Assembly: GCA_910579155.1 (NCBI GenBank)
Contig: CAJTTS010000040.1
Coordinates: 1-29,429 of the forward strand
Length of the DNA stretch: 29,429 nt
From: an uncultured Oscillospiraceae bacterium
GTDB taxonomy: Bacteria; Bacillota_A; Clostridia; Oscillospirales; Oscillospiraceae
Reading direction: 5' to 3'
This document shows, one piece after another, positions 3-21,880 of this stretch (the stretch's first letter is position 1; each line of letters begins with the position of its first letter). The position numbers were made by a program, and so were the translations under genes. The notes below the pieces were generated by a model. It was not told where the DNA came from, did no database searches, and worked only from the letters and a program-made list of their open reading frames with translations.

Positions 3-281
3 TGGGCGGACTACGCCGTGCTCACCGAAGACAACCCCCGGTCGGAGCGCGTAGAGGACATCTGCGACGACCTCTCCGCCTGTCTCGGCGGCCTGCCCCA
101 CGAGACCGTCCCCGACCGCCGCGCGGCCATCTTCCGGGCGCTGGAGCTGGCCGGGCCGGGGGACGTGGTGGCCCTGCTGGGCAAGGGGCACGAGGAGTAC
201 ATCGAGACAAACGGAATCCGCCGTCCCTTCTCGGAACGGCGGGTGGTGGAGGAGTATTTCGGCGTGCAACGTTGTATTTGA
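3..281 (+). CDS. murE: UDP-N-acetylmuramoyl-tripeptide synthetase (MurE), C-terminal part only
   Basis: This is the last ~92 codons of a Mur ligase; the 5' part lies outside the window. MurE adds the third residue of the peptidoglycan stem peptide to UDP-MurNAc-L-Ala-D-Glu in the cytoplasm, using ATP. The visible part is the C-terminal ligase domain. It has the DNPR motif (the meso-diaminopimelate recognition signature in MurE), then a conserved DRRAAI segment, GDVVALLGKGHE, and the terminal F-x-E-R-x-V-V-E-E pattern. Together these separate MurE from MurC, MurD and MurF. The final residues (GVQRCI) and the stop codon fall inside a 12-bp sequence, GTGCAACGTTGT, that recurs at the far end of the inverted duplication, so the natural end of the gene may have been replaced. 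No murF or mraY follows, so it is not in a complete dcw cluster here. Confidence 0.9.
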   Translation, partial: WADYAVLTEDNPRSERVEDICDDLSACLGGLPHETVPDRRAAIFRALELAGPGDVVALLGKGHEEYIETNGIRRPFSERRVVEEYFGVQRCI

Positions 282-355
282 CGGTGACGATTCGGATCGC
301 AAAAAGGGGCCCCCGCAAAGCTACCCTTGCACCGGAACGTACAACACCGCCCCGG

Positions 356-382
356 TTATCCCCTCCCGTCAGGAGGGGATAA
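356..382 (+). promoter_or_regulatory. RBS-sequestering leader hairpin of the 387-767 gene
   Basis: TTATCCCCTCC (356-366) and GGAGGGGATAA (372-382) form a perfect 11-bp stem with a 5-nt loop (CGTCA). The right arm contains the Shine-Dalgarno sequence of the ATG at 387, so the folded RNA would hide the ribosome site. The conserved block CAACACCGCCCCGGTTATC runs into the left arm. The equivalent hairpin at 9619-9646 has a C-G pair changed to T-A at the same stem position. There is no T tract, so it does not look like a terminator. I see no convincing promoter between murE and this element. Confidence 0.75.
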
Positions 383-386
383 AATT

Positions 387-767
387 ATGCAACATACCGA
401 CAAATATCAACTGAACCTGATCGAAACATCCGACCCGTTCTCGCCGGACCCGCTCAACGAGAACGCCCAAAAGCTGGAGCAAGCCATCTCCGCCGAGGCC
501 GCCGCCGAGCAACAGGCCCGCGCCGCCGATGTCGCCGCCCTGGACCAGCGCGTGTCCGCGCTGGAGCTGCACAAGTACGTGACGGGCTATGCGTCCACAA
601 CCGGGTTCACGGACCTGGGCTTCACCCCCATCGCGTTGATCGCCAGCTCCCCCAACGGGCACGCCTTTGTCACCCGGGAGCAGGGCATAACCGGCATCAA
701 TATTGTGGAGGGCGGTTTTAATCACAACGGCTATTTCGGGGTCTGCCGCTACATCGCGTTTCTCTGA
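387..767 (+). CDS. Small phage tail-fibre-like protein, MQHTDKY family (copy 1)
   Basis: This is a 126-residue protein without signal peptide or membrane segment. The first ~30 residues (MQHTDKYQLNLI, then FSP-x2-LNENAQKLE) nearly match the copy at 9195-9614. An Ala/Glu/Gln-rich helical, probably coiled-coil stretch follows (about 32-62). The short Gly/aromatic-rich C-terminal domain has an LGFTPIALIA segment and ends YIAFL. N-terminal helix plus an 'LGF-x-P' and 'Y(I/V)AF' head is a layout I know from Firmicute prophage tail-fibre or receptor-binding proteins, so a phage structural origin is inferred. No other phage gene is nearby. The start at 387 is chosen because the second copy begins at the same Met and AGGAGG lies 10 nt upstream. 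It converges on the SLH gene at 846-4523, sharing its terminator. Its function here is unknown. Confidence 0.75.
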   Translation: MQHTDKYQLNLIETSDPFSPDPLNENAQKLEQAISAEAAAEQQARAADVAALDQRVSALELHKYVTGYASTTGFTDLGFTPIALIASSPNGHAFVTREQGITGINIVEGGFNHNGYFGVCRYIAFL

Positions 768-778
768 AAAAAGCGAGA

Positions 779-815
779 AAAAGTCCCCCCGGGAATTTCC
801 CGGGGGGACTCTTTT
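779..815. terminator. Bidirectional intrinsic terminator between copy 1 small gene and SLH gene 1
   Basis: AGTCCCCCCGGG (782-793) pairs with CCCGGGGGGACT (799-810). An A-rich run precedes it and CTTTTC follows, so it can end transcription of both convergent genes. A near-identical terminator sits at the matching place in the other arm (9150-9186). Confidence 0.85.
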
Positions 816-845
816 CACTGCTTTCGCTGAATCAGCGCCGTTCTC

Positions 846-3800
846 TTACTGCTCGTAGCAGACGTAGATGCAGGTGACGATCAGCGGGTTGCTGGGATCA
901 ACCACGGCGGACACCTTCAGAGGACGTCCGGTGACGGGGTCGATGGAACCGGCCTGGTTCAGAGTAGCCAGATCGGTGATGCCCGGCCAGATGTAGCCGC
1001 TGCTGGGACGGCGGACACAGTTGTCCTCAGCGTTCAGGTTCACGACCTTCGCCCCGGCCACGCGCTCCAGGATATCAGTCGCGTCCATGGGAGAGCCAAT
1101 CGTGCCGTCAGAGCCGCCGAAGATCGCGGTCTGGGCGTCGCGGGTGGTGGCGCTGTAGCTCACCTGGGCCATGTAGCCGAGCTGCGGGCGGTTGCTGGTG
1201 TTGTACACCGCAGCGGTGGTGGTGCCGGTAGTGCCTTGCAGGCCATAGCCGTTCTCGTTGTCGAAGTACACGCCGGGATGCCACATGCCGTTGTCGTCAT
1301 ACTGGCCGGCGGTGTAGATGGGCTGGCCGTCGTTGGCCTTCTCGCCGGTGTCCTTCAGGTTCAGGAACACGTCGTTGACCAGGTTGTAAGTGTGATCCTT
1401 CGCTCCGACCGTGTTGTAGGCGGCGGGGGCGGTGCCGTTGCTGGGATCGTTGGTCAGCCAGATCTGCTCCAGCTCGCCGTCCCTGTACAGGTTGTACTTC
1501 CAGGCATCGATACCCCAGGAGTTAATGGAGGTGTAGTTCGGGTCGCCCACGTAGTACAGGCCGGAACCGCCGCTCCAGGACACCGCAGCCTTGGGCAGGA
1601 CGATGGTGTCGATCTTCATGGCGGTAGCGCCGCTCTGGGCGTAGGTGTAGGGGCTCTCAGTGAAGTAGGTCATGGCGTTCACCGCAGTGGTATTAGCAAT
1701 GTGACCAATGCTCACATCGGTGCCCACCGCGCCGTCCATGTTCAGGACGACCTGGCTGGCGTTGCCCTTCAGCTCGCTGATGCCGGTAAAGACCTCAGCC
1801 TTGACGCTGTCGGTGCCGTAGCCGGACACCAGGATGAACTTGGTGGCCTCGGTGAAGTACTTGTTGCTGGAGGCAGTGGTCTGCTTCGCACCCAGGGTCA
1901 CGTCGGTGTTGGTGATCTGGATGTCGGCGCTGAACGCGGTCTCAGCAGTACCCGCCCTGTCGCTCTGGTAGGCGCCGTTGTGGATGCCCATGCGAGCCAT
2001 GTTGTTCAGGTACTCGTTGCGGTTGGCATAGGGATCGTTGGCAATGCCGTCGGCGATGTCGCCGGTGATGGCGAAGCCGCGGTACACGCCCTCGCCGATG
2101 CCGTTGATGGAACCGGCGGTGTTGTTGGCGGTGTCACGGAAGGGCACGCCGAGCTGGTTGGTGCCGGTGATGTTGGTCAGGGTGGTGGTGCTAGCCTGGC
2201 CCCACTCGTCCATCGTGCCGGGAGGAGTCGTCATACCGGGAGCCCAGAACTGCTTGAGCTGCACGGTCTTGATCTCGCCGTTCATATCAACGCCGGTCAG
2301 GTAGTAGTTGAAGGTGCTGCTGCTGGTGGCCTGGCTGTAATCCAGGTAAGTGCCGTACAGGAACTCGGAGCCGAAGGTGCGCTCAGCGCCCAGGTACTTG
2401 CCCTCGTGGTCCATGTAGAACTTGTAAGCCACGTTGGCGTAGCCCTCTTCCCAGTAGGTCGCGCCCTGCACCCAGCCCTGCGGGATGGCGGTGTTGGGGG
2501 CGGGATCGGCCTTGGGCTGCGCGTCGGACCAGCCCACCACGGTGTGGTAGTACTTGGAGCGCTCCAGCACGGTGCCGTTGTCCAGGGTCACGGTGCCCTT
2601 CGCCACGTTGTAGGCCACCACGGTGCCCTGCACGGGGGCCTCCACCTTGTTGAGCAGGAAGTAGGCGGTCTCAGCGCCGGTGCCGTTGATAGCGGTGGTC
2701 TCGGCAGAGGAGACGGTGCGCGGGGAGGTGCCGGTGATGTGGATGCCCATCTCGTAGTCGCCCAGGTTCTTGGCGGAGTTGCCCACCAGGGCGGCCTGCG
2801 CGATCACGCCGGTCAGGACGCTGTTCACGGACTTCACGTTCACGCCCGCGGCAGTGGTCGGGCTGCCCGCGCCGACGCCGTCGGTGTCCAGGCCGCCGCC
2901 GGTACCGGCGGTGATGAACATGGTCTCAAACTGGGAACCGTCGGTCAGGTCCACGGTGCCGTTGTCCATCACGGGCATACCCAGGGTGGGCACGCGGTTG
3001 ACGTTGTTGGACTCGGTGATCTGAGAGGACTCGATGTTCAGCGCGATGACCGCGTCAAGCTGCTTGTTGCCGCTGTTGGAGATCAGCTTGTACAGGCGCA
3101 CGGGGCTGGCGATCGCGTCGGCCTCGTCCACGTCCTCGCCGTTGCCCACGCCGTCGGAGGCGGCAGTGGCGAAGTCAGTGCCGAACAGGCCGAAGCTGTT
3201 GTTGAACACGGCGGTGGTATTGGCGTTGGGGGCCTTGAAGCCCGCGCCCTCGATCAGGTCGAACAGGTTGCGGCCGCCGTTGGCAAAGTCATCGGAGGTT
3301 GCGTTTACGGCGGTGGGGTTGCCCTGGCCGTTATCGCCGTCGGAGACGGTGACAATGGCGGTGTGCTCCACCTCGTCGAAGTAGGCGAACACGGGACGGC
3401 CGGACTTGGAGGCGGAGCCGGTGCCGTCGTCGTACCACAGCTTCAGGTTGTGGCCGATCAGGTCGATGCCGGTCTCCATGGTAAAGGTCACGTTCTTGCC
3501 CACCACGGCGTTTTTCGCGTCATCCGTGGCCGCGGTGCCGGTGGCGGAGGCCTTCGCGATGATGCCCGCAGCGGACACGTCATACTTGGTCTGCCAGGTG
3601 TAGGCGCTGTAGGGGACGCCGCCGGGCCAGTTGCTGGAGTTGATGGGCGCGCCGTTCACGTGCGTCGTCGCGGGCTTGGCGTCAAACTCCTTGCTGTTGC
3701 TGGCGTAGCCCATGACGGACTTGGACTCGCCGGTCTGCTGGTTGCCCAGCAGCACGCCTTCCTTGCTCAGGCTCAAGCCAAAGATGCGCTTGCCCAGAGT

Positions 3801-4523
3801 GGGGTTGGGGGTAGTGGTAGTGCCGATCAGGCTGCCGCTGTTGCCGTTCACCATGCCGTAGGGCTGATAGCCGAAGGCGGGGGTGTAAACGACCATGGGC
3901 ACGAAAGCATCGGCCTGGAACAGCAGGTCGGCGACCACGTCGCGGCGGGCGGCCAGGTACAGGGTGCCGCCGTACTGGGTGGTCTTGACGTTGGTCAGGA
4001 TGCCAAGCTGCTGAGACAGGGCGGAGACCTCGGTCTGCCAGGTGGAGCCGGTGAACTCGCCGTTCTTGTCGTAGCCGATGGCGCGCAGGATCATGGCCAG
4101 GGCCTCGTAGCCGGTCACGTTGCCGGACGGGTCGAAGTTGCCGTTGGGACGGCCCTTGATGTAGCCCGCGTTGGCGCAGTAGCCGACGTAGCCGGCGTAC
4201 CAGGCGTCATGGGGGACGTCGGGGAAGTTGCCGTACTCGGCGTACAGGTGGGCCTGGGCGTCGGTCACGTCGCCGGTGGCCAGGCGGTAGATCAGGGCGG
4301 CCACTTCGGCGCGGGTGATGTTGGCGGCGGGCTTGAAGTTGCCGTTATCGCCGCTGTACACGCCCATGCCGGTGAGCACGTCCACAGCTTCCTCAAACGC
4401 TTCGGTCACGCCGTCGGCGTCGCCGTACTGCGTGCCGGTGGTGGTGGCGTTGGCGGTGACCATCAGAGAGAAGGCCATCATCATCGCCAGAACCAGCGCG
4501 AGGAACTTTTTCAAGTTTCTCAT
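846..4523 (-). CDS. Large SLH-domain cell-surface protein 1
   Basis: This 1,225-residue secreted protein starts with a Sec signal peptide (MRNLKKFLALVLAMMMAF..., cleavage near ANA at 24-26). Three S-layer homology repeats follow at about 33-80, 98-150 and 160-205. The first carries the ITRAE motif and the second has GYEA in its place. SLH repeats normally anchor proteins to pyruvylated secondary cell-wall polymers, so this should be an S-layer-type or adhesin protein. The remaining ~1,000 residues are Asn/Thr/Gly/Asp-rich, beta-strand-like, and match no enzymatic domain I recognise. The final ~50 residues, including GYIWPGITDL, are nearly identical to the second SLH protein. AAGGAGG lies just before the ATG, in a leader shared with SLH gene 2. 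A sigma-A-like promoter is at 4634-4663. The gene is divergent from SLH gene 2 and convergent with the small tail-like gene. Confidence 0.9.
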   Translation of the reverse strand: MRNLKKFLALVLAMMMAFSLMVTANATTTGTQYGDADGVTEAFEEAVDVLTGMGVYSGDNGNFKPAANITRAEVAALIYRLATGDVTDAQAHLYAEYGNFPDVPHDAWYAGYVGYCANAGYIKGRPNGNFDPSGNVTGYEALAMILRAIGYDKNGEFTGSTWQTEVSALSQQLGILTNVKTTQYGGTLYLAARRDVVADLLFQADAFVPMVVYTPAFGYQPYGMVNGNSGSLIGTTTTPNPTLGKRIFGLSLSKEGVLLGNQQTGESKSVMGYASNSKEFDAKPATTHVNGAPINSSNWPGGVPYSAYTWQTKYDVSAAGIIAKASATGTAATDDAKNAVVGKNVTFTMETGIDLIGHNLKLWYDDGTGSASKSGRPVFAYFDEVEHTAIVTVSDGDNGQGNPTAVNATSDDFANGGRNLFDLIEGAGFKAPNANTTAVFNNSFGLFGTDFATAASDGVGNGEDVDEADAIASPVRLYKLISNSGNKQLDAVIALNIESSQITESNNVNRVPTLGMPVMDNGTVDLTDGSQFETMFITAGTGGGLDTDGVGAGSPTTAAGVNVKSVNSVLTGVIAQAALVGNSAKNLGDYEMGIHITGTSPRTVSSAETTAINGTGAETAYFLLNKVEAPVQGTVVAYNVAKGTVTLDNGTVLERSKYYHTVVGWSDAQPKADPAPNTAIPQGWVQGATYWEEGYANVAYKFYMDHEGKYLGAERTFGSEFLYGTYLDYSQATSSSTFNYYLTGVDMNGEIKTVQLKQFWAPGMTTPPGTMDEWGQASTTTLTNITGTNQLGVPFRDTANNTAGSINGIGEGVYRGFAITGDIADGIANDPYANRNEYLNNMARMGIHNGAYQSDRAGTAETAFSADIQITNTDVTLGAKQTTASSNKYFTEATKFILVSGYGTDSVKAEVFTGISELKGNASQVVLNMDGAVGTDVSIGHIANTTAVNAMTYFTESPYTYAQSGATAMKIDTIVLPKAAVSWSGGSGLYYVGDPNYTSINSWGIDAWKYNLYRDGELEQIWLTNDPSNGTAPAAYNTVGAKDHTYNLVNDVFLNLKDTGEKANDGQPIYTAGQYDDNGMWHPGVYFDNENGYGLQGTTGTTTAAVYNTSNRPQLGYMAQVSYSATTRDAQTAIFGGSDGTIGSPMDATDILERVAGAKVVNLNAEDNCVRRPSSGYIWPGITDLATLNQAGSIDPVTGRPLKVSAVVDPSNPLIVTCIYVCYEQ

Positions 4524-4633
4524 TGGATTTGTTTCCTCCTTGTTTATTTTTGCCTGAATCTCAGCACTTTTTTGCGGTTAGTTGGAACATAAGCCATCCT
4601 CTCCGCCGTCGGTCCCTCGTTCAAGCTAAACGC

Positions 4634-4663
4634 ATGATACCACACGGCGAAACGAAAAGTCAA
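4634..4663 (-). promoter_or_regulatory. Sigma-A-type promoter for SLH gene 1
   Basis: On the minus strand, TTGACT (4658-4663), an 18-nt spacer, then TATCAT (4634-4639). Transcription would give a leader of roughly 105 nt before the ATG at 4523. The promoter lies just outside the part of the leader shared with SLH gene 2. Confidence 0.65.
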
Positions 4664-4778
4664 TGGGTCAAGCTCAAGTGTAACACAACTGTAACAAAGC
4701 GAAATGTTGCCGGAAACGGTGCAACGGCGGAAAATTTTGACGAACGCAAGCTCTTGTGCCGGGGGGGTGGCCTGCGGG

Positions 4779-4808
4779 TATATATATAGTGGTATGTCCC
4801 TGGTGCAA
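4779..4808 (-). promoter_or_regulatory. Possible second promoter for SLH gene 1
   Basis: On the minus strand, TTGCAC (4803-4808), an 18-nt spacer, then TATATA (4779-4784) inside the TATATATATA run. The TTGCAC is one of the repeated motifs of the central region. The AT run is nearly symmetric, so direction is uncertain; a weak plus-strand reading, TTGTGC at 4754 with a 19-nt spacer, is also possible. Confidence 0.35.
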
Positions 4809-4819
4809 CGGCAATGCAG

Positions 4820-4866
4820 CGCGAAAAAAACCCATGTTTTTTTAAAAAAAACGCGTTTTTTTCGCG
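4820..4866. repeat. Inverted repeat with internal A/T tracts
   Basis: CGCGAAAAAAAC (4820-4831) is repeated in perfect inversion as GTTTTTTTCGCG (4855-4866). Between them lies a T7 run followed by an A8 run. The element could form a cruciform or hairpin, act as a bidirectional terminator separating the divergent transcripts, or be intrinsically curved DNA. Its role is inferred only. Confidence 0.7.
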
Positions 4867-5049
4867 AAAATTCCGCGTTTGTTGCACGGGCCGTCCGGTT
4901 TTTCCCCGCGTCCGCCTGAAAACGGCCCGAAAATTGCACGGAAGTTGTCCGTTTTGTTGCACGGCGGCCTTTCAGGCCGGTTTGCGGGAAGTCAACGTTG
5001 CCCGTTTTGCCGGGTGCGGCGGTTGTACGAAGCGGATGCGTATTAAGGT

Positions 5050-5128
5050 AAGGCGGGAGGGCGGCGGCTCCGGTGCGCCCCCTCCCGCGCGGCGGCTCCG
5101 CCGCTCCCCCTCCCGCGCGGCGGCTCCG
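5050..5128. repeat. 28-bp GC-rich tandem repeat, about 2.5 copies
   Basis: A 23-bp block ending GCGGCGGCTCCG occurs at 5078-5100 and 5106-5128, 28 bp apart. A third partial copy (GCGGCGGCTCCG at 5061-5072) keeps the same 28-bp phase. It lies where a promoter for SLH gene 2 would be expected by symmetry and has no counterpart on the SLH gene 1 side. Confidence 0.7.
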
Positions 5129-5329
5129 CTGCGCCCGCCCGCACCCCCTCCCGGGAAAATGCGGGACAAAATCTCCCGTGGAACGCCGCGAAAAAGTGCC
5201 GTAAACGGCCCGGGTCCGGCGGTTTCCGGCACGGTTCGGCCCCTGAGAGGATGGCTTATCTTATCGCCATTTTATCCGCCAAAAAGTTCCAAAATTCGGG
5301 CGAAAATAAACAAGGAGGAAACAAATCCA

Positions 5330-8300
5330 ATGAGAAACTTGAAGAAGTTCCTCGCGCTGGTTCTGGCGATGATGATGGCCTTCTCTCTGATGGTCACCGC
5401 CAACGCGGCCAACCCGGTCCGGGATTATCCCGACATCGACCAGGCCGACGAAGCGTTTGAGGAAGCGATCGACGTGCTCACCGGCATGAAGGTGTACAGC
5501 GGCGACAACGGCAATCTTAAGCCCGCCAGCACCATCACCCGCGCCGAGGTGGCCGCGCTGATCTACCGCCTGGCCACCGGCGACGTGACCGACGCCCAGG
5601 CCCACCTGTACGCCGAGTACGGCAACTTCCCCGACGTCCCCCATGACGCCTGGTACGCCGGCTACGTCGGCTACTGCGCCAACGCGGGCTACATCAAGGG
5701 CCGTCCCAACGGCAACTTCGACCCGTCCGGCAACGTGACCGGCTACGAGGCCCTGGCCATGATCCTGCGCGCCATCGGCTACGACAAGAACGGCGAGTTC
5801 ACCGGCTCCACCTGGCAGACCGAGGTCTCCGCCCTGTCTCAGCAGCTTGGCATCCTGACCAACGTCAAGACCACCCAGTACGGCGGCACCCTGTACCTGG
5901 CCGCCCGCCGCGACGTGGTGGCCGACCTGCTGTTCCAGGCCGACGCTTTCGTGCCCATGGTCGTCTACACCCCCGCCTTCGGCTATCAGCCCTACGGCAT
6001 GGTGAACGGCAGCAGCGGCAACCTGATCGGCTCCACCCAGACCCCCAACCCCACCCTGGGCCGCCGCATCTTCGGCCTGACCTATAGCAGCGACAAGACC
6101 GAGAAGAACGGCGACGGCAAGGGCCTGCCTGTCCTGCTGGGCAACGAGCAGACCGGCGAGAGCAAGGACAAGTCCGTCATGGGCTACAAGGGCGAGGCCA
6201 CCAAGAACGTGAACGGCGGCAATCTGGCCACCCCCATCCCCTACACCGAGTACACCTGGCAGGATAATTATGACGTGAGCGCCGCCACCGTGACCAACGG
6301 CGTGGCCACCGGCATCGCGGGCGAGGACACCGCCAACGCCGCGAACAACGCCGAGCTGGGCAAGAACGTCACCTACACCCTGAAGAGCGGCATCGACCTG
6401 GTGGGCCACAAGCTGAAGCTGTGGTACGACGACGGCACCGGCTCCGCCTCCCTGAGCAACAAGCGGGTGTACGCCTACTTTGACAAGGCCACCCTGACTG
6501 ATGTGGTCACCGTCACCAACGGCGTGAAGGCCGACGGCACCCCCGAAGCGGTGACCAACCCCACTGCGGTCAACGCTACCGCCACTTATGGCGCTGCTCC
6601 CGCCGTGGACGGCGCGAACCTGTATGACCTGGCCGACGACGCGGGCTTCGCGGTGAACGCCAACACCACCGTGGCCTTTAACAACAGCTTCGGCCGGTTC
6701 GGCTCCGACTTCGACACCGCCGACGCTGCCGCTGTGGGCAGCGGCGAGCGCGTGGACGCCATGACCAGCGTGACCAGCCCCGTGCGCATGTACAAGCTGA
6801 TCTCCAACAGCGGGGACAAGAGCCTGGACGTGGTCATCGCCCTGAACATCGAGTCCTCCCGGATCACCGAGTCCAACAACGTCAACCGCGTGCCCACCAT
6901 CAGCGTGCCCGTGTTTGACACCCAGGCCACCCTGGGCACGGAGAATGCCGCCACCGACTGGGACGGCACCGCCGCCAACATGGCCGGTATCCAGACGGGC
7001 GCTCAGATCCAGACCGCCTATGTTGACGGCTCTATTACGGACATTGCCAGCACCCCCTGGACGGACAAGAACCTGAAGCGCGTGCCCAACGCCGATAACG
7101 GCGCCGTGACCGGCGTGGTCGCGCAGGCCGCCCTGGTGGGCAACTCCGTCAAGGACCTGGGCGACTATGAGTTCGGCATCCACATCACCGGCACCAGCCC
7201 CCGCACCGTCTCCAAGGCGGAGCATGAAGCCATCAACAACAAGGGCCAGGAGACCGCCTGGTTCCTGATGAACGAAGTGACCGCCCCCGTGCAGGGCACC
7301 GTGGTGGCCTACAACGTGGCGAAGGGCACCGTGACCCTGGACAACGGCACCGTTCTGGAGCGTTCCAAGTACTACCACACCGTGGTGGGCTGGACCGACG
7401 CGCAGCCCAAGGCCAATTCCGCCCCCAACACCGCCATCCCGCAGGGCTGGACCCAGGGCGCCACATACTGGGAAGAGGGCTACGCCAACGTGGCTTACAA
7501 GTTCTACCTGGACCACGAGGGCAAGTATCTGGGCGCGGAGCGCACCTACGGCTCCACCTTCCTGTACGGCACCTATCTGGACTACGACCAGAAGACCAGC
7601 ACCAGCTCCTTCAACTACTTCCTGACCGGCGTGGACATGAACGGCGAGATCCAGACCGTCCAGCTCAAGAAGTTCTGGGACGGCCAGACAACCGACGGCA
7701 CCAAGGAGGAGGCGTCCATCGCGCCCGCTACTACCTGGGCTGCCACCAATCTGGTTGACATCACCGGCACCGACGACCTGGGCGTGCCCTTCCGTGACAC
7801 CTTCGGCCACGGCGGTACTGCGGGCACCAACTCTGTCAACGGCATCGGCGTGGGCGTGTACATGGGCTACGCCATCACCGGCGAGACCGGCGATCCCATC
7901 GTCGGCGATCCCTACACCGACCGCGGCGAGTACCTGGCCAACATGAACCGCCTGGGCATCCACAACGGCGCTTACCAGGGCGACAACGCCTTCACCGCCG
8001 AGACCGCGTTCGACAGCGGCACTCTGATTGACAAGACCGACATCACCCTGGGCGCGAAGGAGACTGACACCGGCTCCAACAAGTTCTTCACCGAGGCCAC
8101 CAAGTTCATCCTGGTGTCCGGCTACGGCACCGACTCCGTGAAGGCCACCGTGTACACCGGCATCAGCGAGCTGCGCGGCAGCGCCAGCAGCGTGACCCTG
8201 AGGACGGGCGTCACCGTGGCCGCGCTGGACGACCGGAGGATGGCCAGCATCGACGAAAACACCGACGTGAAGGACATGATCTACTACACCCAGAGTCCCT

Positions 8301-9118
8301 ACACCTACGCCCAGAGCGGCCAGACCGCTATGAAGATCGACACCATCATCCTGCCCGCGGCTGCGGTGTCCTGGAGCGGTGGTTCCGGCCTGTACTACGT
8401 GGGCGATCCCAACTACACCCTGATTAACTCCTGGGGCACCGACGCCTGGAAGTACAACCTGTACAAGGACGGCGAGCTGGAGCAGATCTGGCTGACCAAC
8501 GATCCCAGCAACGGCACCGCCCCCGCCGCCTACAACACGGTCGGAGCGAAGGATCACACTTACAACCTGGTCAACGACGTGTTCCTGAACCTGAAGGACA
8601 CCGGCGAGAAGGCCAACGACGGCCAGCCCATCTACACCGCCGGCCAGTATGACGCCAACGGCACGTGGCATCCCGGCGTGTACTTCAACAACACCAACGG
8701 GTACGACCTGATGACAAACACTGGTTCCGGAACCAACGCGGTGTACAACACCAGCGGCCGCCCGCAGTTGGGCTACATGGCCCGCGTGGATTACAGCGCG
8801 ATGACCCGCGACGCCCAGACCGCCACCTTCGGCGGCGCTGACGGGCAGATCAACGTGCTTGATGCGACCGACAGCGTGAACAACGACAACATCCTGGAGC
8901 GCGTGGCCGGCGCGAAGGTCGTGAACCTGAACGCCAAGGAGAACTGCATCCGTCAGCCCGACAGCGGCTACATCTGGCCGGGCATCACCGATCTGGCGAC
9001 CCTGAACCAGGCCGGCTCCATCGATCCCGTCACCGGGCGCTCCCTGAAGGTGTCCGCGGTCGTGGATCCCACCAACAACCTGATTGTCACCTGCATCTAC
9101 GTCTGCTACGAGCAGTAA
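5330..9118 (+). CDS. Large SLH-domain cell-surface protein 2
   Basis: This 1,262-residue paralogue of the 846-4523 product has an identical 26-residue signal peptide. Three SLH repeats lie at about 33-205, with ITRAE in the first. A long Thr/Asn/Gly-rich extracellular part ends in the same tail (GYIWPGITDL..., terminal YVCYEQ). It is presumed wall-anchored through its SLH repeats. Conservation with the paralogue is patchy. The SLH part is almost identical even at silent sites, residues just after it (about 240-430) and around 540-580 differ with insertions, and the last third is again close. The start at 5330 is set by the signal peptide and by AAGGAGG 10 nt upstream; open frame continues upstream but is non-coding leader. 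Unlike SLH gene 1, no clear -10/-35 pair lies near its leader, so its expression may be low or conditional. Confidence 0.9.
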   Translation: MRNLKKFLALVLAMMMAFSLMVTANAANPVRDYPDIDQADEAFEEAIDVLTGMKVYSGDNGNLKPASTITRAEVAALIYRLATGDVTDAQAHLYAEYGNFPDVPHDAWYAGYVGYCANAGYIKGRPNGNFDPSGNVTGYEALAMILRAIGYDKNGEFTGSTWQTEVSALSQQLGILTNVKTTQYGGTLYLAARRDVVADLLFQADAFVPMVVYTPAFGYQPYGMVNGSSGNLIGSTQTPNPTLGRRIFGLTYSSDKTEKNGDGKGLPVLLGNEQTGESKDKSVMGYKGEATKNVNGGNLATPIPYTEYTWQDNYDVSAATVTNGVATGIAGEDTANAANNAELGKNVTYTLKSGIDLVGHKLKLWYDDGTGSASLSNKRVYAYFDKATLTDVVTVTNGVKADGTPEAVTNPTAVNATATYGAAPAVDGANLYDLADDAGFAVNANTTVAFNNSFGRFGSDFDTADAAAVGSGERVDAMTSVTSPVRMYKLISNSGDKSLDVVIALNIESSRITESNNVNRVPTISVPVFDTQATLGTENAATDWDGTAANMAGIQTGAQIQTAYVDGSITDIASTPWTDKNLKRVPNADNGAVTGVVAQAALVGNSVKDLGDYEFGIHITGTSPRTVSKAEHEAINNKGQETAWFLMNEVTAPVQGTVVAYNVAKGTVTLDNGTVLERSKYYHTVVGWTDAQPKANSAPNTAIPQGWTQGATYWEEGYANVAYKFYLDHEGKYLGAERTYGSTFLYGTYLDYDQKTSTSSFNYFLTGVDMNGEIQTVQLKKFWDGQTTDGTKEEASIAPATTWAATNLVDITGTDDLGVPFRDTFGHGGTAGTNSVNGIGVGVYMGYAITGETGDPIVGDPYTDRGEYLANMNRLGIHNGAYQGDNAFTAETAFDSGTLIDKTDITLGAKETDTGSNKFFTEATKFILVSGYGTDSVKATVYTGISELRGSASSVTLRTGVTVAALDDRRMASIDENTDVKDMIYYTQSPYTYAQSGQTAMKIDTIILPAAAVSWSGGSGLYYVGDPNYTLINSWGTDAWKYNLYKDGELEQIWLTNDPSNGTAPAAYNTVGAKDHTYNLVNDVFLNLKDTGEKANDGQPIYTAGQYDANGTWHPGVYFNNTNGYDLMTNTGSGTNAVYNTSGRPQLGYMARVDYSAMTRDAQTATFGGADGQINVLDATDSVNNDNILERVAGAKVVNLNAKENCIRQPDSGYIWPGITDLATLNQAGSIDPVTGRSLKVSAVVDPTNNLIVTCIYVCYEQ

Positions 9119-9149
9119 GAGAACGGTGCTAAATCAGCAAAAGCAGTAA

Positions 9150-9186
9150 AAGAAGTCCCCCCGGGAATTTTCCGGGGGGACTTCTT
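9150..9186. terminator. Bidirectional intrinsic terminator between SLH gene 2 and copy 2 small gene
   Basis: AAGTCCCCCCGG (9153-9164) pairs with CCGGGGGGACTT (9172-9183), preceded by an A-rich run and followed by CTTCTTT. It is the counterpart of the terminator at 779-815. Confidence 0.85.
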
Positions 9187-9194
9187 TGCGCCGC

Positions 9195-9614
9195 TCAGCC
9201 AAAGGCGACATAGGCGAAGGTTCCGGCGGCGTTGAGGGCGGTGCCGTTGTTGCTGCCGCCGCCGTGGCCGGTGATGGAGAAGCCGTCGTCGGTGATGTGG
9301 CCGTTACTGTGGGAGACACCGTCAAAGAGCGCCCCGCCCCGGGTGACCCCGGCCGCCAGGATGAACACTACCCTGGGGCGGAAGCCCAGGCTGACGTTGA
9401 AGGTGGTTACGCTGGGCAGATAGGTGCCGAAGGCGAAGCGCTTGGCCTCGAACACCTGGAGGCGCTGGTCCAAGGCGGCGTCCCCGGTGGCGGCCTCAGC
9501 CCGGACGGCCTCCAGGGCCGCCTCCAGCTTTTGGGCGTTCTCGTTGAGCGCCTCCGGCGAGAACGTGTCGTTCCGGTCGATCAGGTTCAGTTGATATTTG
9601 TCGGTGTGTTGCAT
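9195..9614 (-). CDS. Small phage tail-fibre-like protein, MQHTDKY family (copy 2)
   Basis: This 139-residue soluble protein has no signal peptide. The N-terminal ~30 residues match copy 1 (MQHTDKYQLNLI, FSP-x-ALNENAQKLE). A helical segment (about 33-55, DAALDQRLQVFEAK) then leads into a Gly-rich beta-type head with SLGFRPRVVFILAA, a GGGSNNG turn and the ending AYVAFG. The final 'LN-x2-G-x2-Y-x-A-F' style is common in prophage tail proteins, so a tail-fibre or receptor-binding ancestry is inferred. The head shares only its general pattern with copy 1, so the two proteins look like one N-terminal module with two exchanged C-terminal modules. It converges with SLH gene 2. The ATG at 9614 follows GGAGGAGAT, which is buried in the leader hairpin. 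Confidence 0.75.
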   Translation of the reverse strand: MQHTDKYQLNLIDRNDTFSPEALNENAQKLEAALEAVRAEAATGDAALDQRLQVFEAKRFAFGTYLPSVTTFNVSLGFRPRVVFILAAGVTRGGALFDGVSHSNGHITDDGFSITGHGGGSNNGTALNAAGTFAYVAFG

Positions 9615-9618
9615 GTTT

Positions 9619-9646
9619 TTATCTCCTCCTCACCGGGAGGAGATAA
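9619..9646 (-). promoter_or_regulatory. RBS-sequestering leader hairpin of the 9195-9614 gene
   Basis: On the transcribed strand, TTATCTCCTCC (9646-9636) and GGAGGAGATAA (9629-9619) form a perfect 11-bp stem with a 6-nt loop. The Shine-Dalgarno is inside the right arm, followed after AAAC by the ATG. Compared with 356-382, stem position 6 changes from C-G to T-A, which keeps the pairing. The same CAACACCGCCCCGGTTATC block precedes it. Confidence 0.75.
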
Positions 9647-9718
9647 CCGGGGCGGTGTTGCCCAAAAAAATGCAAGAAAAAATTCCGTGCCGGGGGTTTT
9701 TTTCGGCAAAAGACAACG

Positions 9719-9747
9719 TTGCACCCGGCTGTCCCGTCTGTTACAAT
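9719..9747 (+). promoter_or_regulatory. Sigma-A-type promoter of the BMP/metallophosphoesterase unit
   Basis: TTGCAC (9719-9724), a 17-nt spacer, then TACAAT (9742-9747), 34 bp before the ATG at 9782. The -35 box overlaps the outer end (CAACGTTGCAC) of the inverted duplication. Confidence 0.75.
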
Positions 9748-9781: not shown

Positions 9782-11725
9782 ATGTCGAACGCCGAAGCGG
9801 TGCAGAACTATCAGCAGGCCCTGAAGCTGGGCCAAAAGGAATACAAGAATTGTGTCCACCGGGGCTTTTACCCCAACATCCAGGCCCTGGGGCCGGATCA
9901 GCTCCAACTGTCCCAAGTCAAGCTGGGCGTGATGGAAATTCCCATCTACCTTGTGGTGGGCTCCACCGAGGAGGCCCGGTGTAACTCGTTTTCCCCCGGA
10001 TTTTATCCCCTGATGAGCCAGGACAGCGAGTTTGCCATGAAGTGGATCACCCTGTGCTCCGCCCAGCTCAGCGAGGGTATTCACGACGCTATCAAATGCT
10101 ATGAATACCTGGGCCGGTTCTACGTCCAGGAGGGAAATAAGCGGGTGAGCGTGCTCAAAACCATGGGCTCCGCCACCATTCAGGCGGACGTCACCCGGCT
10201 CATGCCCGAAAAGTCGGACGACATCACCACCCGGATTTACCTGGAGTTCCTGGAGTTTTTCAAGCACAGCAAGTGCTGGGGCGTGCATTTCAGCGATCTG
10301 GGCGGGTACGCCAAGCTCCAGGCGGCGCTGGGGTACGCCCGCGACGAGGACTGGCCGGAGGACATCCAGAAGAAGTTCCGGGCCCGGTATTTCAGCTTCC
10401 GGACCAGCTTTTACCGCCTGGGCGGGAGCAGCCTGGGCCTGACCACCGGGGACGCGCTGTTGCGGTGGCTGGAATTTTACTCCGCAGAGGAGTTTTTCGC
10501 ATCCATCGGCGAGGGCGACTTCCGCCAGACCCTCAGCGCCGTTTGGAAGGAACTGTGCGTCCACGCTGAAACCGCGCCCATCGCGGTAAGCCTGGCCCCG
10601 GCCGGCGAGGGCGGGGAGAAAAAGGGCGTGATGTCCGCCCTGCTGGGCAGCGGCAAGAAAAAGCTGCGGGTGGCGTTTCTGTTCCAGGACACCCCGGCCA
10701 CCAGCGGCTGGACCGCCGCCCACGACAAGGGCCGGGAGCACCTGGAGGAGACCCTGGGGGACAGCGTCAGCGTGCAGTGTTACTATGAGGTGTCCCGGCA
10801 GGGGGCGGCCGCGGTCATCGGCGAGGCGGTGGCCGACGGCGCGGAGCTGATCTTCACCACCTCGGTGAGCCTCATTGACGCCACGCTGCGGGTGGCGGTG
10901 AAGTACCCGAAGGTGCGGTTCATGAACTGTTCCATTGACCAGCCCTACGTGAACGTGAAGGCCTATTACTGCCGGGTGTACGAAGCCAAATTCATCACCG
11001 GGGCCATCGCCGGAGCCATGAGCAAAACCGGGCGGATCGGCTACGTGGGCAGCTATCCCATCCTGGGCGTGCCCGCCAGCATCAACGCCTTTGCCCTGGG
11101 CGCCGCCCTGACCAATCCGGACGCGCAGGTGGAGCTGCGCTGGCACTGCCTGCCTGGGGACTATATGGAGGAGTTCCGCCGCCAGGGCGTCCGCCTGGTC
11201 AGCGACCGGGACTATATCGCCGAGCAGCCCTACGGGGCCCAGGGCCTGGCCTGCCTGGAGGCGGACGGGGAGCTGACGCAACTGGCCTCTCCCTCCTGGC
11301 TGTGGGGGGAATTCTACGTGCGCATTGTGCGGGAGCTGCTCCGGGACCCCAAAACCATCCCCCTGGCCGAGGACAGTAACAAGGCCATCAACTACTGGTG
11401 GGGGATGAACAGCGGCGTGGTGGACATGAAGCTGAGCCCCAACCTGCCCGAGGGCATGCGGGCGCTGGCGGAGCTGCTCCGGGACGGCATCCGCGCCGGA
11501 ACCATCCAGCCCTTCAGGCGGTTGATCCGGGCCCAGGACGGGCGGCTCATCAACGACGGCAGCCGCAACCTGACCATGGAGGAGATTTTGAAAATGGACT
11601 GGCTGTGCGACCGGGTGGACGGCCGCTTGCCCGCCTATGAGGAGCTGCTGCCCATCACCCGCGCCACGGTGCGGCGGTTGGGCGTGGACCGGGAGAACAT
11701 TCCGCCGGAGGAGGAGAATGCGTGA
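9782..11725 (+). CDS. Cytoplasmic BMP-family ligand-binding protein with N-terminal ParB-like segment
   Basis: This is a 647-residue protein. Residues ~294-570 resemble the BMP/Med (PnrA-like) substrate-binding family, which usually binds nucleosides for ABC importers: KLRVAFLFQDTPATSGW, an internal TTSVSLIDATLRVAVKYP stretch, then a GRIGYVGSYPILG stretch. Unlike those lipoproteins it has no signal peptide or lipobox. It carries ~290 N-terminal residues that include QEGNKRVSVLK (116-126), like the ParB/Srx-type G-N-x-R-V segment. A soluble intracellular sensor of a nucleoside-like ligand is therefore more likely than transport; this is inference. No permease or ATPase gene is nearby. The ATG at 9782 follows AAAGGAGG, and a clear promoter lies just upstream. 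The stop codon overlaps the GTG of the phosphoesterase gene, so the two are translationally coupled. Confidence 0.75.
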   Translation: MSNAEAVQNYQQALKLGQKEYKNCVHRGFYPNIQALGPDQLQLSQVKLGVMEIPIYLVVGSTEEARCNSFSPGFYPLMSQDSEFAMKWITLCSAQLSEGIHDAIKCYEYLGRFYVQEGNKRVSVLKTMGSATIQADVTRLMPEKSDDITTRIYLEFLEFFKHSKCWGVHFSDLGGYAKLQAALGYARDEDWPEDIQKKFRARYFSFRTSFYRLGGSSLGLTTGDALLRWLEFYSAEEFFASIGEGDFRQTLSAVWKELCVHAETAPIAVSLAPAGEGGEKKGVMSALLGSGKKKLRVAFLFQDTPATSGWTAAHDKGREHLEETLGDSVSVQCYYEVSRQGAAAVIGEAVADGAELIFTTSVSLIDATLRVAVKYPKVRFMNCSIDQPYVNVKAYYCRVYEAKFITGAIAGAMSKTGRIGYVGSYPILGVPASINAFALGAALTNPDAQVELRWHCLPGDYMEEFRRQGVRLVSDRDYIAEQPYGAQGLACLEADGELTQLASPSWLWGEFYVRIVRELLRDPKTIPLAEDSNKAINYWWGMNSGVVDMKLSPNLPEGMRALAELLRDGIRAGTIQPFRRLIRAQDGRLINDGSRNLTMEEILKMDWLCDRVDGRLPAYEELLPITRATVRRLGVDRENIPPEEENA

Positions 11726-20152: not shown

Positions 20153-21880
20153 TCACGCGCTCCTCTTCTTCATCAAGAACAGGAACCCGATCATCAGCGC
20201 CACGCCGATGGGCAGCGCGATCAGCCCCGGCGCGCCCGCGAAGGCCAGCACGCCCGCGATAAGATACGTGACACCCGTAATCACCGCACAGGAGATGGCG
20301 TAGGGCAGTTGGGTGGACACATGGTTCACGTGGTCGCATTGAGCCCCTGCGGAGGCCATGATGGTGGTGTCGGAGATGGGGGAGCAGTGGTCGCCGCACA
20401 CCGCGCCGGCCATGCAGGCGGAGATGCAGATGATGGCCAGGGGGTTGTCCATAGAGAACACATTCTGGACAATGGGGATGAGGATGCCGAAGGTGCCCCA
20501 GGAGGTACCGGTGGCAAAGGCCAGCAGGCAGCCCACCACGAACACGATCACAGGCAGCAGCACCTGGATGCCGGAGGCGGTGCGCACAAAGTCACGGACG
20601 AAGAATTTCGCGCCCAGGGAATCGGTCATGCCCTTCAGGGACCAGGCGAAGGTGAGGATCATGATGGCGGGCACCATGGCCTTAAAGCCCTCGGGGATGC
20701 AGCCCATGATGTCCCGGAAGGACATAGAGCGGCGGATCAGGTAATAAATGATGGCAAACACCAGCCCGAAGGCGGAGCCCAGCATCAGGCCCACGGAGGC
20801 ATCGGAATTGGAGAAAGCGGTGATGAAGTCATCTCCGTCGAAGAAGCCGCCGGAGTAGATCATGCCGATGACGCAGGCCACCACCAGCACCACGATGGGC
20901 AGCACCAGGTCCAGCACGGAACCCTTGGACTCATCCACATCATCCGTCATGGTGGCATAGGGGTTGGAGCCGGAGAACAGGTCGCCCTTCTCCACGGCGT
21001 TCTTCTCAAACTTGGCCATGGGGCCGAAGTCTACATTGAGCACCACCAGGCCGACCATCATCACGATGGTGAACAGGGCGTAGAAGTTATATGGGATGGC
21101 GCGGATGAACAGGTTCAGGCCCTGGCCGTCCTCGGCGAAGGCGGCCACAGCGGCCGCCCAGGACGAGATGGGGGCAATGATGCACACCGGGGCGGCGGTG
21201 GCGTCGATCAGGTAAGCCAGCTTGGCCCGGGACACGTTGTGCTTGTCGGTGATGGGCCGCATGACAGAGCCCACGGTAAGGCAGTTGAAGTAGTCGTCGA
21301 TGAAGATCAGGCACCCCAGCAGGATGGAGGATAGCTGCGCACCCACCCGGGAGTGGATGTTCTTCTGGGCCCAGCGTCCGAAGGCGGCGGAGCCCCCCGC
21401 CTTGTTCATCAGGCACACGATGGCCCCCAGGATGACCAGGAAGATCAGGATGCCCACGTTGTACCCATCGGACAGAGAGGCCACGATTCCGTCGTTGAAG
21501 GCGTGCAGGACGGTCCCCTCGAAGGAGAAATTGGAGTACAGCAGCCCGCCCATCAAAATCCCGATGAACAGGGAGGAGTAAACCTCCTTGGTAATCAGCG
21601 CCAGCGCAATGGCGATAACCGGGGGCAGCAGGGACCAGATGGTGTTATAGAAATTGCTGGGAGACTTGATATAGCCATAGCCCTCGCAGGTGTCGCAGGT
21701 GACAGCCTCGCCCACATCGGACAGCACCACGCCCAGCGTACCGCAGTCGGGGCACTCAATGTACTTGGTGTTGCTGATTTCGGTGGGGTCCTCCGAGGCG
21801 GCAAAGGCGGTGCTGGTCAGGGCAAACATCATCATGACAAGCAGCGCGATGATGCCCAGACGGGTTTTTGTTCTTCTCAT
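20153..21880 (-). CDS. NhaC-family Na+/H+ antiporter-like lysine transporter with N-terminal Cys4 extension
   Basis: This 575-residue membrane protein has about a dozen hydrophobic spans and NhaC landmarks, such as FIDDYFNCLTVGSVMRP, ATGTSWGTFGILIPI and GAVCGDHCSPISDTTIM. It differs from ordinary NhaC at the start: a signal-peptide-like segment (1-27, ending TAFA) is followed by C43-x2-C46 and C62-x2-C65 with an EGYGY turn, resembling a DnaJ-like zinc ribbon. This places a small Cys4 unit outside the membrane. The gene sits behind a lysine riboswitch. NhaC-type proteins under lysine riboswitches have been proposed as lysine transporters, so lysine transport is the best guess and Na+/H+ exchange the alternative. 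AAGGAGAG precedes the ATG at 21880. Confidence 0.88.
   Translation of the reverse strand: MRRTKTRLGIIALLVMMMFALTSTAFAASEDPTEISNTKYIECPDCGTLGVVLSDVGEAVTCDTCEGYGYIKSPSNFYNTIWSLLPPVIAIALALITKEVYSSLFIGILMGGLLYSNFSFEGTVLHAFNDGIVASLSDGYNVGILIFLVILGAIVCLMNKAGGSAAFGRWAQKNIHSRVGAQLSSILLGCLIFIDDYFNCLTVGSVMRPITDKHNVSRAKLAYLIDATAAPVCIIAPISSWAAAVAAFAEDGQGLNLFIRAIPYNFYALFTIVMMVGLVVLNVDFGPMAKFEKNAVEKGDLFSGSNPYATMTDDVDESKGSVLDLVLPIVVLVVACVIGMIYSGGFFDGDDFITAFSNSDASVGLMLGSAFGLVFAIIYYLIRRSMSFRDIMGCIPEGFKAMVPAIMILTFAWSLKGMTDSLGAKFFVRDFVRTASGIQVLLPVIVFVVGCLLAFATGTSWGTFGILIPIVQNVFSMDNPLAIICISACMAGAVCGDHCSPISDTTIMASAGAQCDHVNHVSTQLPYAISCAVITGVTYLIAGVLAFAGAPGLIALPIGVALMIGFLFLMKKRSA

Follow-up and report, generated by a model that had tools for sequence, protein, structure and literature searches.

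The window analysed here, a 29,429-nt stretch of DNA from an uncultured Oscillospiraceae bacterium, carries at positions 264-9724 a mirror-image locus of four genes in the order MQ1> <SLH1 SLH2> <MQ2 (Table 1). Its inverted arms comprise stretches of 817 nt at 92%, 588 nt at 87% and 451 nt at 92% identity together with shorter pieces at 70-96%; between the terminators the identity is 89%. SLH1 and SLH2 both match the S-layer homology domain family PF00395 in Pfam and are 72% identical overall, with divergent islands that include one 60-column block holding just 17 identities; the start of SLH2 was set at 5330, the open reading frame start at 4814 not being the true one. MQ1 and MQ2 agree at 25 of their first 31 residues, and their C-terminal heads are different. 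Neither matched a Pfam family, and the best E-value in a PHROGs search with the two proteins was 0.22.

The initial annotation had described two mirrored arms with matching gene order, terminators, leaders and outer 12-bp ends, all of which the sequence comparison bears out. Since the same MQ> <SLH SLH> <MQ layout recurs in seven other loci (L001, L002, L007, L008, L016, L019 and L032), an assembly artefact is very unlikely. We read the 12-bp repeats present at both outer ends as back-to-back half-sites of a recurring dyad motif, GTTGCACG-N4-CGTGCAAC, rather than as element ends; additional half-sites lie in the divergent region of SLH1 and SLH2, between 4718 and 5029. Three tandem 28-nt repeats are found upstream of SLH2 (5061-5144). 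Away from the locus, a lysine riboswitch (RF00168; 21990-22160, minus strand) precedes an antiporter-like gene at 20156-21880, for which Tet(35) was the best NCBIfam match, far under its cut-off; in an Rfam search of the whole window at E<=1 the riboswitch was the sole match above its cut-off.

Table 1 Features of the mirror-image locus (window coordinates)
Feature	Position	Strand	Remarks
Left outer repeat	264-275	+	GTGCAACGTTGT; read as dyad half-sites, back to back
Dyad motif before MQ1	326-345	+	13/16 positions of GTTGCACG-N4-CGTGCAAC
MQ1 leader hairpin	356-382	+	11-bp stem TTATCCCCTCC/GGAGGGGATAA; Shine-Dalgarno in 3' arm
MQ1, tail-fibre-type protein, 126 aa	387-767	+	
Terminator-like inverted repeat, MQ1/SLH1	778-815		no strand
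SLH1, surface protein, 1225 aa	846-4523	-	SLH domains, signal-peptide-like start
Dyad motif, SLH1/SLH2 divergent region	4706-4725	+	13/16
SLH2, surface protein, 1262 aa	5330-9118	+	
Terminator-like inverted repeat, SLH2/MQ2	9150-9187		no strand
MQ2, tail-fibre-type protein, 139 aa	9195-9614	-	
MQ2 leader hairpin	9619-9646	-	11-bp stem TTATCTCCTCC/GGAGGAGATAA; Shine-Dalgarno in 3' arm
Weak dyad before MQ2	9657-9676	-	11/16; TTGC-N10-GCAA intact
Right outer repeat	9713-9724	-	inverted copy of 264-275

MQ genes, their leaders and their SLH neighbours

A protein search returned 104 relatives of MQ1, and members of the family as built share a conserved N-terminus and a coiled-coil-like stretch and vary in their C-terminal part; comparison with solved structures gave weak matches, and no signal peptide was seen at the MQ starts in the sequences read by eye. 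Scanning genome contigs with profile A1 produced 37 loci, titled Oscillospiraceae, Clostridiales or uncultured bacterium, and further MQ groups with N-termini such as MSTNKTEHFGLHAWEPEDRFLREEFNENF occur in the family of genome G001. The resulting catalogue holds 84 MQ genes in 58 loci (the 37, another 20 and the window), the A1 loci having been found through MQ alone and the later-group loci hand-picked from MQ matches. A convergent SLH gene lies within 250 bp of 63 of these 84 genes, at a median distance of 85 bp (61-212). Where 3.3 kb or more of sequence lies beyond the MQ gene the proportion is 60/62, and the remaining 19 genes with no visible partner are those where the contig or fetched stretch stops within 3.3 kb. 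The two exceptions that have room are in L035 (+10001) and L078; the unpaired MQ of L078 (5764-6381) is convergent to genes which we take to be glycosyltransferase-like and UDP-galactopyranose-mutase-like, presumably another kind of surface-making neighbour. SLH domains are common, giving 24-88 matches per genome in 22 genomes, and MQ matches number 1-7, which means that MQ is associated with some SLH genes and not with all.

A functional link between the two proteins is likely, as had been proposed from the window, and the wider catalogue shows MQ genes almost always convergent to SLH genes and mostly outside ordinary prophages. A one-to-one lock-and-key relation of MQ head and SLH body was unsupported by covariation: over 63 pairs, the agreement of head similarity with body similarity was 0.158 versus 0.164 in within-genome shuffles (p 0.70), in a test that is weak because MQ heads saturate and whole SLH bodies were compared.

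The leader noted as special in the initial annotation turned out to be a hairpin with the Shine-Dalgarno sequence in its 3' arm, and the stems of the two window copies (Table 1) differ by compensatory changes. Stems of at least 9 bp, with 17 distinct 5' arms, are present in 48/50 class-1 MQ leaders, counted directly because MAFFT shifted the register needed for column-wise covariation statistics, and with no shuffle control; a Shine-Dalgarno-like sequence lies in the 3' arm of 46 of these 48. In the MQ leaders of one clade the hairpin is predicted to hide the ribosome-binding site; in the wider MQ groups a hairpin abutting the start is mostly absent.

With regard to chromosomal place, 22 of 57 related loci have one or more neighbour genes of the window beside the pair, as vertical inheritance would predict; L001 and L002, for example, share with the window a murE fragment and an antiporter-rplQ-rpoA-secY stretch (murE and adk being probable gene assignments). 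Arrays of at least five SLH/MQ pairs occur in G291 and in G150 and establish that duplication of the pair as a unit is real. The suggestion that the pair is a unit of duplication or mobility is thus upheld for duplication by the arrays and disfavoured for mobility by the common neighbours: no sign of element ends was noticed at the MQ/SLH loci viewed, and mobility is not indicated by these sequences.

A conserved phage-like cluster and its relation to MQ

Baseplate_J was detected in 28/28 MQ-bearing genomes versus 3/14 named controls, a count to which ordinary prophages contribute, and 17 of the 20 baseplate loci fetched represent one conserved cluster. The cluster, known from the genomes of relatives and not from the window's own, contains terminase, portal, capsid, contractile sheath, tube and baseplate genes. 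In L089, Pfam matched terminase, capsid, portal, sheath, LysM, baseplate J and a Gp48-like protein (portal and Gp48 under their cut-offs), and in L160 terminase; no integrase, replication or repressor gene was noticed in the L089 ORF list, some of whose genes were scanned against families. The relatives carry one trait of a gene transfer agent (GTA), a chromosomal phage structural cluster with terminase, portal and capsid, and the cluster departs from an R-type tailocin, a contractile tail with no head or terminase, in having both. The tape-measure family PF10145 matched 16/28 genomes, counted anywhere in the genome rather than relative to the cluster. At the expected tape-measure place L089 has a 189-aa protein (9994-10563) and no long tape-measure gene, a possible sign of a very short tail. 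Near the cluster end, and convergent to it, four genomes encode a small SLH-domain protein (about 165 aa) that begins with a signal-peptide-like stretch (L088 9932-10738; L109 217-741; L113 13109-13633; L118 13925-14446).

The capsid gene was found in 107/300 genomes of the family and 43/295 of the order, as a single copy except in G125 (split across two contigs); all E-values were <=1e-93 apart from that of a 52-aa fragment in G103. Median dN/dS values, from 15-21 pairs per gene, were 0.12 for the capsid, 0.16 for the terminase part, 0.18 for the portal, 0.21 for baseplate J and 0.23 for the sheath; on this distribution and these ratios, the cluster is kept by vertical inheritance under purifying selection.

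An MQ profile search of the 20 baseplate loci gave no match at E<1, and none of the 15 clusters viewed that far has an MQ-type gene next after the gpI-like gene; in L114 and L118 that place is taken by a different gene, of about 152 aa, and in L109 less than 1 kb of sequence remains. In most genomes the pairs and the cluster are far apart or on different contigs. MQ lies roughly 5-30 kb from the capsid in G064, G291, G138, G252 and G150, at much larger distances in G061 and G140, and on a separate contig in others. The two occur together. In the same 300 family genomes, MQ (profile A2, E<=1e-4) was accompanied by the capsid in 75 and stood alone in 23; another 32 had the capsid alone and 170 neither, an odds ratio of 17, with p values that overstate the case because the genomes are related and the co-occurrence is not independent. 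At E<=1e-20 for MQ, 39 of 42 MQ-positive genomes had the capsid. The cluster's baseplate J (E<1e-50) was present in 5 of the 23 MQ-only genomes, and 18/98 MQ-positive genomes had neither capsid nor cluster baseplate gene at that threshold.

Direct placement of MQ beside baseplate genes came from L120 (G260), where an MQ-type gene directly follows gpI, and from viral contigs. Profile A8, built on the class-2 alignment, matched five of the latter. One of these, L165/L201, is the element itself and carries MQ> <SLH immediately before the terminase gene of the cluster; a further viral contig, L246, has the same arrangement. In L167 the MQ N-terminal motif stands right after gpI, in L169 about 0.7 kb after gpI and in L166 about 0.6 kb after baseplate J; in L168 it opens two long proteins with no baseplate gene in view. 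MQ homologues in L166, L167, L169 and L120 thus occupy the place of phage tail fibres downstream of related baseplate genes, in keeping with the tail-fibre type assigned to the window proteins, and we hold the fibre identity of MQ and its link to the cluster to be highly probable. Nine viral loci have 1.5 kb or more of sequence before the terminase, and in 4 of them an SLH gene lies there. By tblastn against 50,697 phage records, neither MQ2 (limit E 1) nor one class-2 MQ (limit E 0.01) found a match, and scans of viral contigs with A1 and with the MQ of L120 gave zero matches each. Human-faecal 'Bacteriophage sp.' records (MT835769.1, MT836604.1, MT835952.1, MT835508.1 and MT838993.1) contain capsid relatives at 54-65% identity, and 221 IMG/VR stretches encode a relative of the cluster capsid; the cluster is therefore frequently catalogued as viral.

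The dyad motif and a putative regulon

The dyad in its TTGC-N10-GCAA form occurs 59 times in a 1.60-Mb set enriched in MQ and cluster loci versus 5-26 times at other spacings, and before 28/84 MQ genes versus 0-2. At a threshold of 12 of the 16 positions, the motif precedes 47/82 MQ genes versus 32/3000 controls and 11/14 cluster starts (L127 weakly) versus 9.3% of 1500 random windows, counts that are not fully independent of the consensus because it was written after the MQ leaders and cluster starts had been viewed; the cluster starts of L108, L109 and L111 reach 11/16. The position is narrow, 41 of the 47 MQ dyads lying 58-63 bp before the start. Paired SLH genes carry the dyad in 15/52 upstream regions versus 61/2000 controls, 8 of the 15 at 200-210 bp before the start, and SLH genes outside the paired set in 0/8, at least two of these (L019, L069) being end-cut pair members. 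It was also present upstream of 7/15 viral terminase genes, some of them near-duplicates.

A strict search (at most one mismatch) matched 8 of 20 genomes, the motif being absent in 12/20, and the reversed pattern yielded 0-1 sites per genome. In G206, 9/16 strict sites stand upstream of the cluster and of the 8 MQ matches, and in G093 7/9 stand upstream of the cluster and of 6/7 MQ matches. Some other strict sites stand before unrelated genes, three of them DUF6291 genes (PF19808) with the dyad 40-80 bp upstream (L149 in G206, L155 in G093 and L158 in G018), which are perhaps further members of the putative regulon.

As an RNA hairpin the dyad was set aside, changes in one half being mostly uncompensated by eye, and its spacing, also judged by eye, does not fit a sigma-70 -35 element. 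Before the cluster of G201 the dyad (L123 14251-14270) is followed by a T run and looks terminator-like, so attenuation may operate there. The best explanation of the motif is a putative regulon that would tie fibre, surface protein and particle cluster together in many lineages.

Proposed roles and comparison with known systems

We consider it rather probable that the MQ proteins are detached receptor-binding fibres of a domesticated, contractile-tailed, GTA-like particle and that the SLH proteins are their co-regulated surface partners. The genes for terminase, head, tail and baseplate would form the separate conserved cluster that ends with no MQ-type gene, and the fibre genes would be kept at other sites, commonly as multiple copies, every one facing the gene of a large SLH surface protein convergently; the dyad would join all three in many lineages. 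In one clade the hairpin over the MQ ribosome-binding site would block translation of stray transcripts. From position and fold, the MQ N-terminus may dock on the baseplate, the helix may trimerise and the variable head may bind the cell surface. The SLH protein would most likely make up the surface layer encountered by particles on recipient cells and act there as receptor or gate; that it is the receptor proper is a possibility to which we give somewhat less than an even chance. If, as several lines of evidence suggest, the pairs belong with such a domesticated virus-like particle, they may determine the cells to which it attaches. A more specific version, which we put forward tentatively, is kin recognition: multi-copy fibre cassettes, some hairpin-locked, would face the cell's own S-layer genes, and a single regulon would make a DNA-carrying, contractile-tailed GTA, its adhesins and the surface they meet. 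Counting against the fibre-and-partner explanation are the missing head/body covariation, the 32 capsid-bearing genomes with no MQ match, the 18/98 MQ-positive genomes with neither capsid nor cluster baseplate gene, the absence of the strict motif from 12/20 genomes, the usual distance between cluster and pairs, and the weak structure matches.

That covariation is lacking would suit a PBSX- or tailocin-like killer whose MQ heads target other strains and whose SLH proteins mask the producer from its own fibres. The fibre, regulon and linkage evidence fits such a weapon and shield equally, and heads that vary quickly, in several copies kept per genome, are what targeting would predict. The purifying selection on terminase, portal and capsid, needless for a killer that carries no DNA, argues against it; PBSX itself retains a head, so conservation of the head genes is not decisive, and we regard this alternative as unlikely but worth keeping in sight. 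The near-constant pairing would also be expected if MQ had no part in the particle and were instead presented on the S-layer by the neighbouring SLH protein, as an adhesin of the surface or a decoy for phages. This reading we find improbable in view of the MQ starts, which have no signal peptide in the sequences read by eye, of the MQ motif downstream of baseplate genes in viral contigs, and of the way that the dyad and MQ occurrence track the cluster. Least probable by far is a mobile or invertible element with the pair as cargo: the inverted arms, the 12-bp outer repeats and the several pairs in one genome might suggest one, and against it stand the identical layout in seven other loci, the neighbour genes common to 22/57 loci and the match of the outer repeats to dyad half-sites.

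If the domesticated-particle explanation is true, common gut bacteria could steer gene exchange to chosen cell surfaces, and the MQ family, whose MQ1 and MQ2 matched no Pfam family, would gain a function. The pairs would be the likely targeting parts of the cluster, and the motif makes the regulon testable. No earlier description of an SLH/tail-fibre gene pair appeared in the literature searched, mainly titles and the beginnings of abstracts.

PBSX-like elements and R-type tailocins have a contractile tail and are chromosomal with no sign of self-transfer, and the cluster resembles them in tail type and location; unlike the headless tailocins it conserves terminase, portal and capsid, and unlike PBSX, whose fibre genes lie inside its cluster, it has its fibre genes outside. 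In RcGTA of Rhodobacter capsulatus, the capsule and head-spike genes are located away from the main particle cluster. The capsule receptor genes adjoin and are co-regulated with the head-spike genes (PMC10218006), which is the arrangement proposed here for a receptor-binding particle gene and its would-be receptor. Unlike the capsule and head spike of RcGTA, the MQ/SLH system would pair a protein layer with a contractile-tail fibre, in Gram-positive-type bacteria and as convergent pairs in many copies. SlpA of C. difficile belongs to a protein family different from that of the SLH proteins. It too is an S-layer protein that a contractile particle would recognise, its variants setting susceptibility to contractile phages (PMC10100898), and no pairing of SlpA with a fibre gene such as that seen here is described there. 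FpGTA of Faecalibacterium, from a related gut group, is a domesticated particle whose fibre and receptor-binding genes occupy a second locus (PMC12946183); unlike the cluster described here, it is thought to be podovirus-like and to have no sheath, and the terms 'S-layer' and 'SLH' are absent from the text of that report. The same work reports GTA-like packaging in Onthomonas, a member of the Oscillospiraceae, and does not name the operon (PMC12946183); the cluster is a concrete candidate for that unnamed operon in gut Oscillospiraceae.
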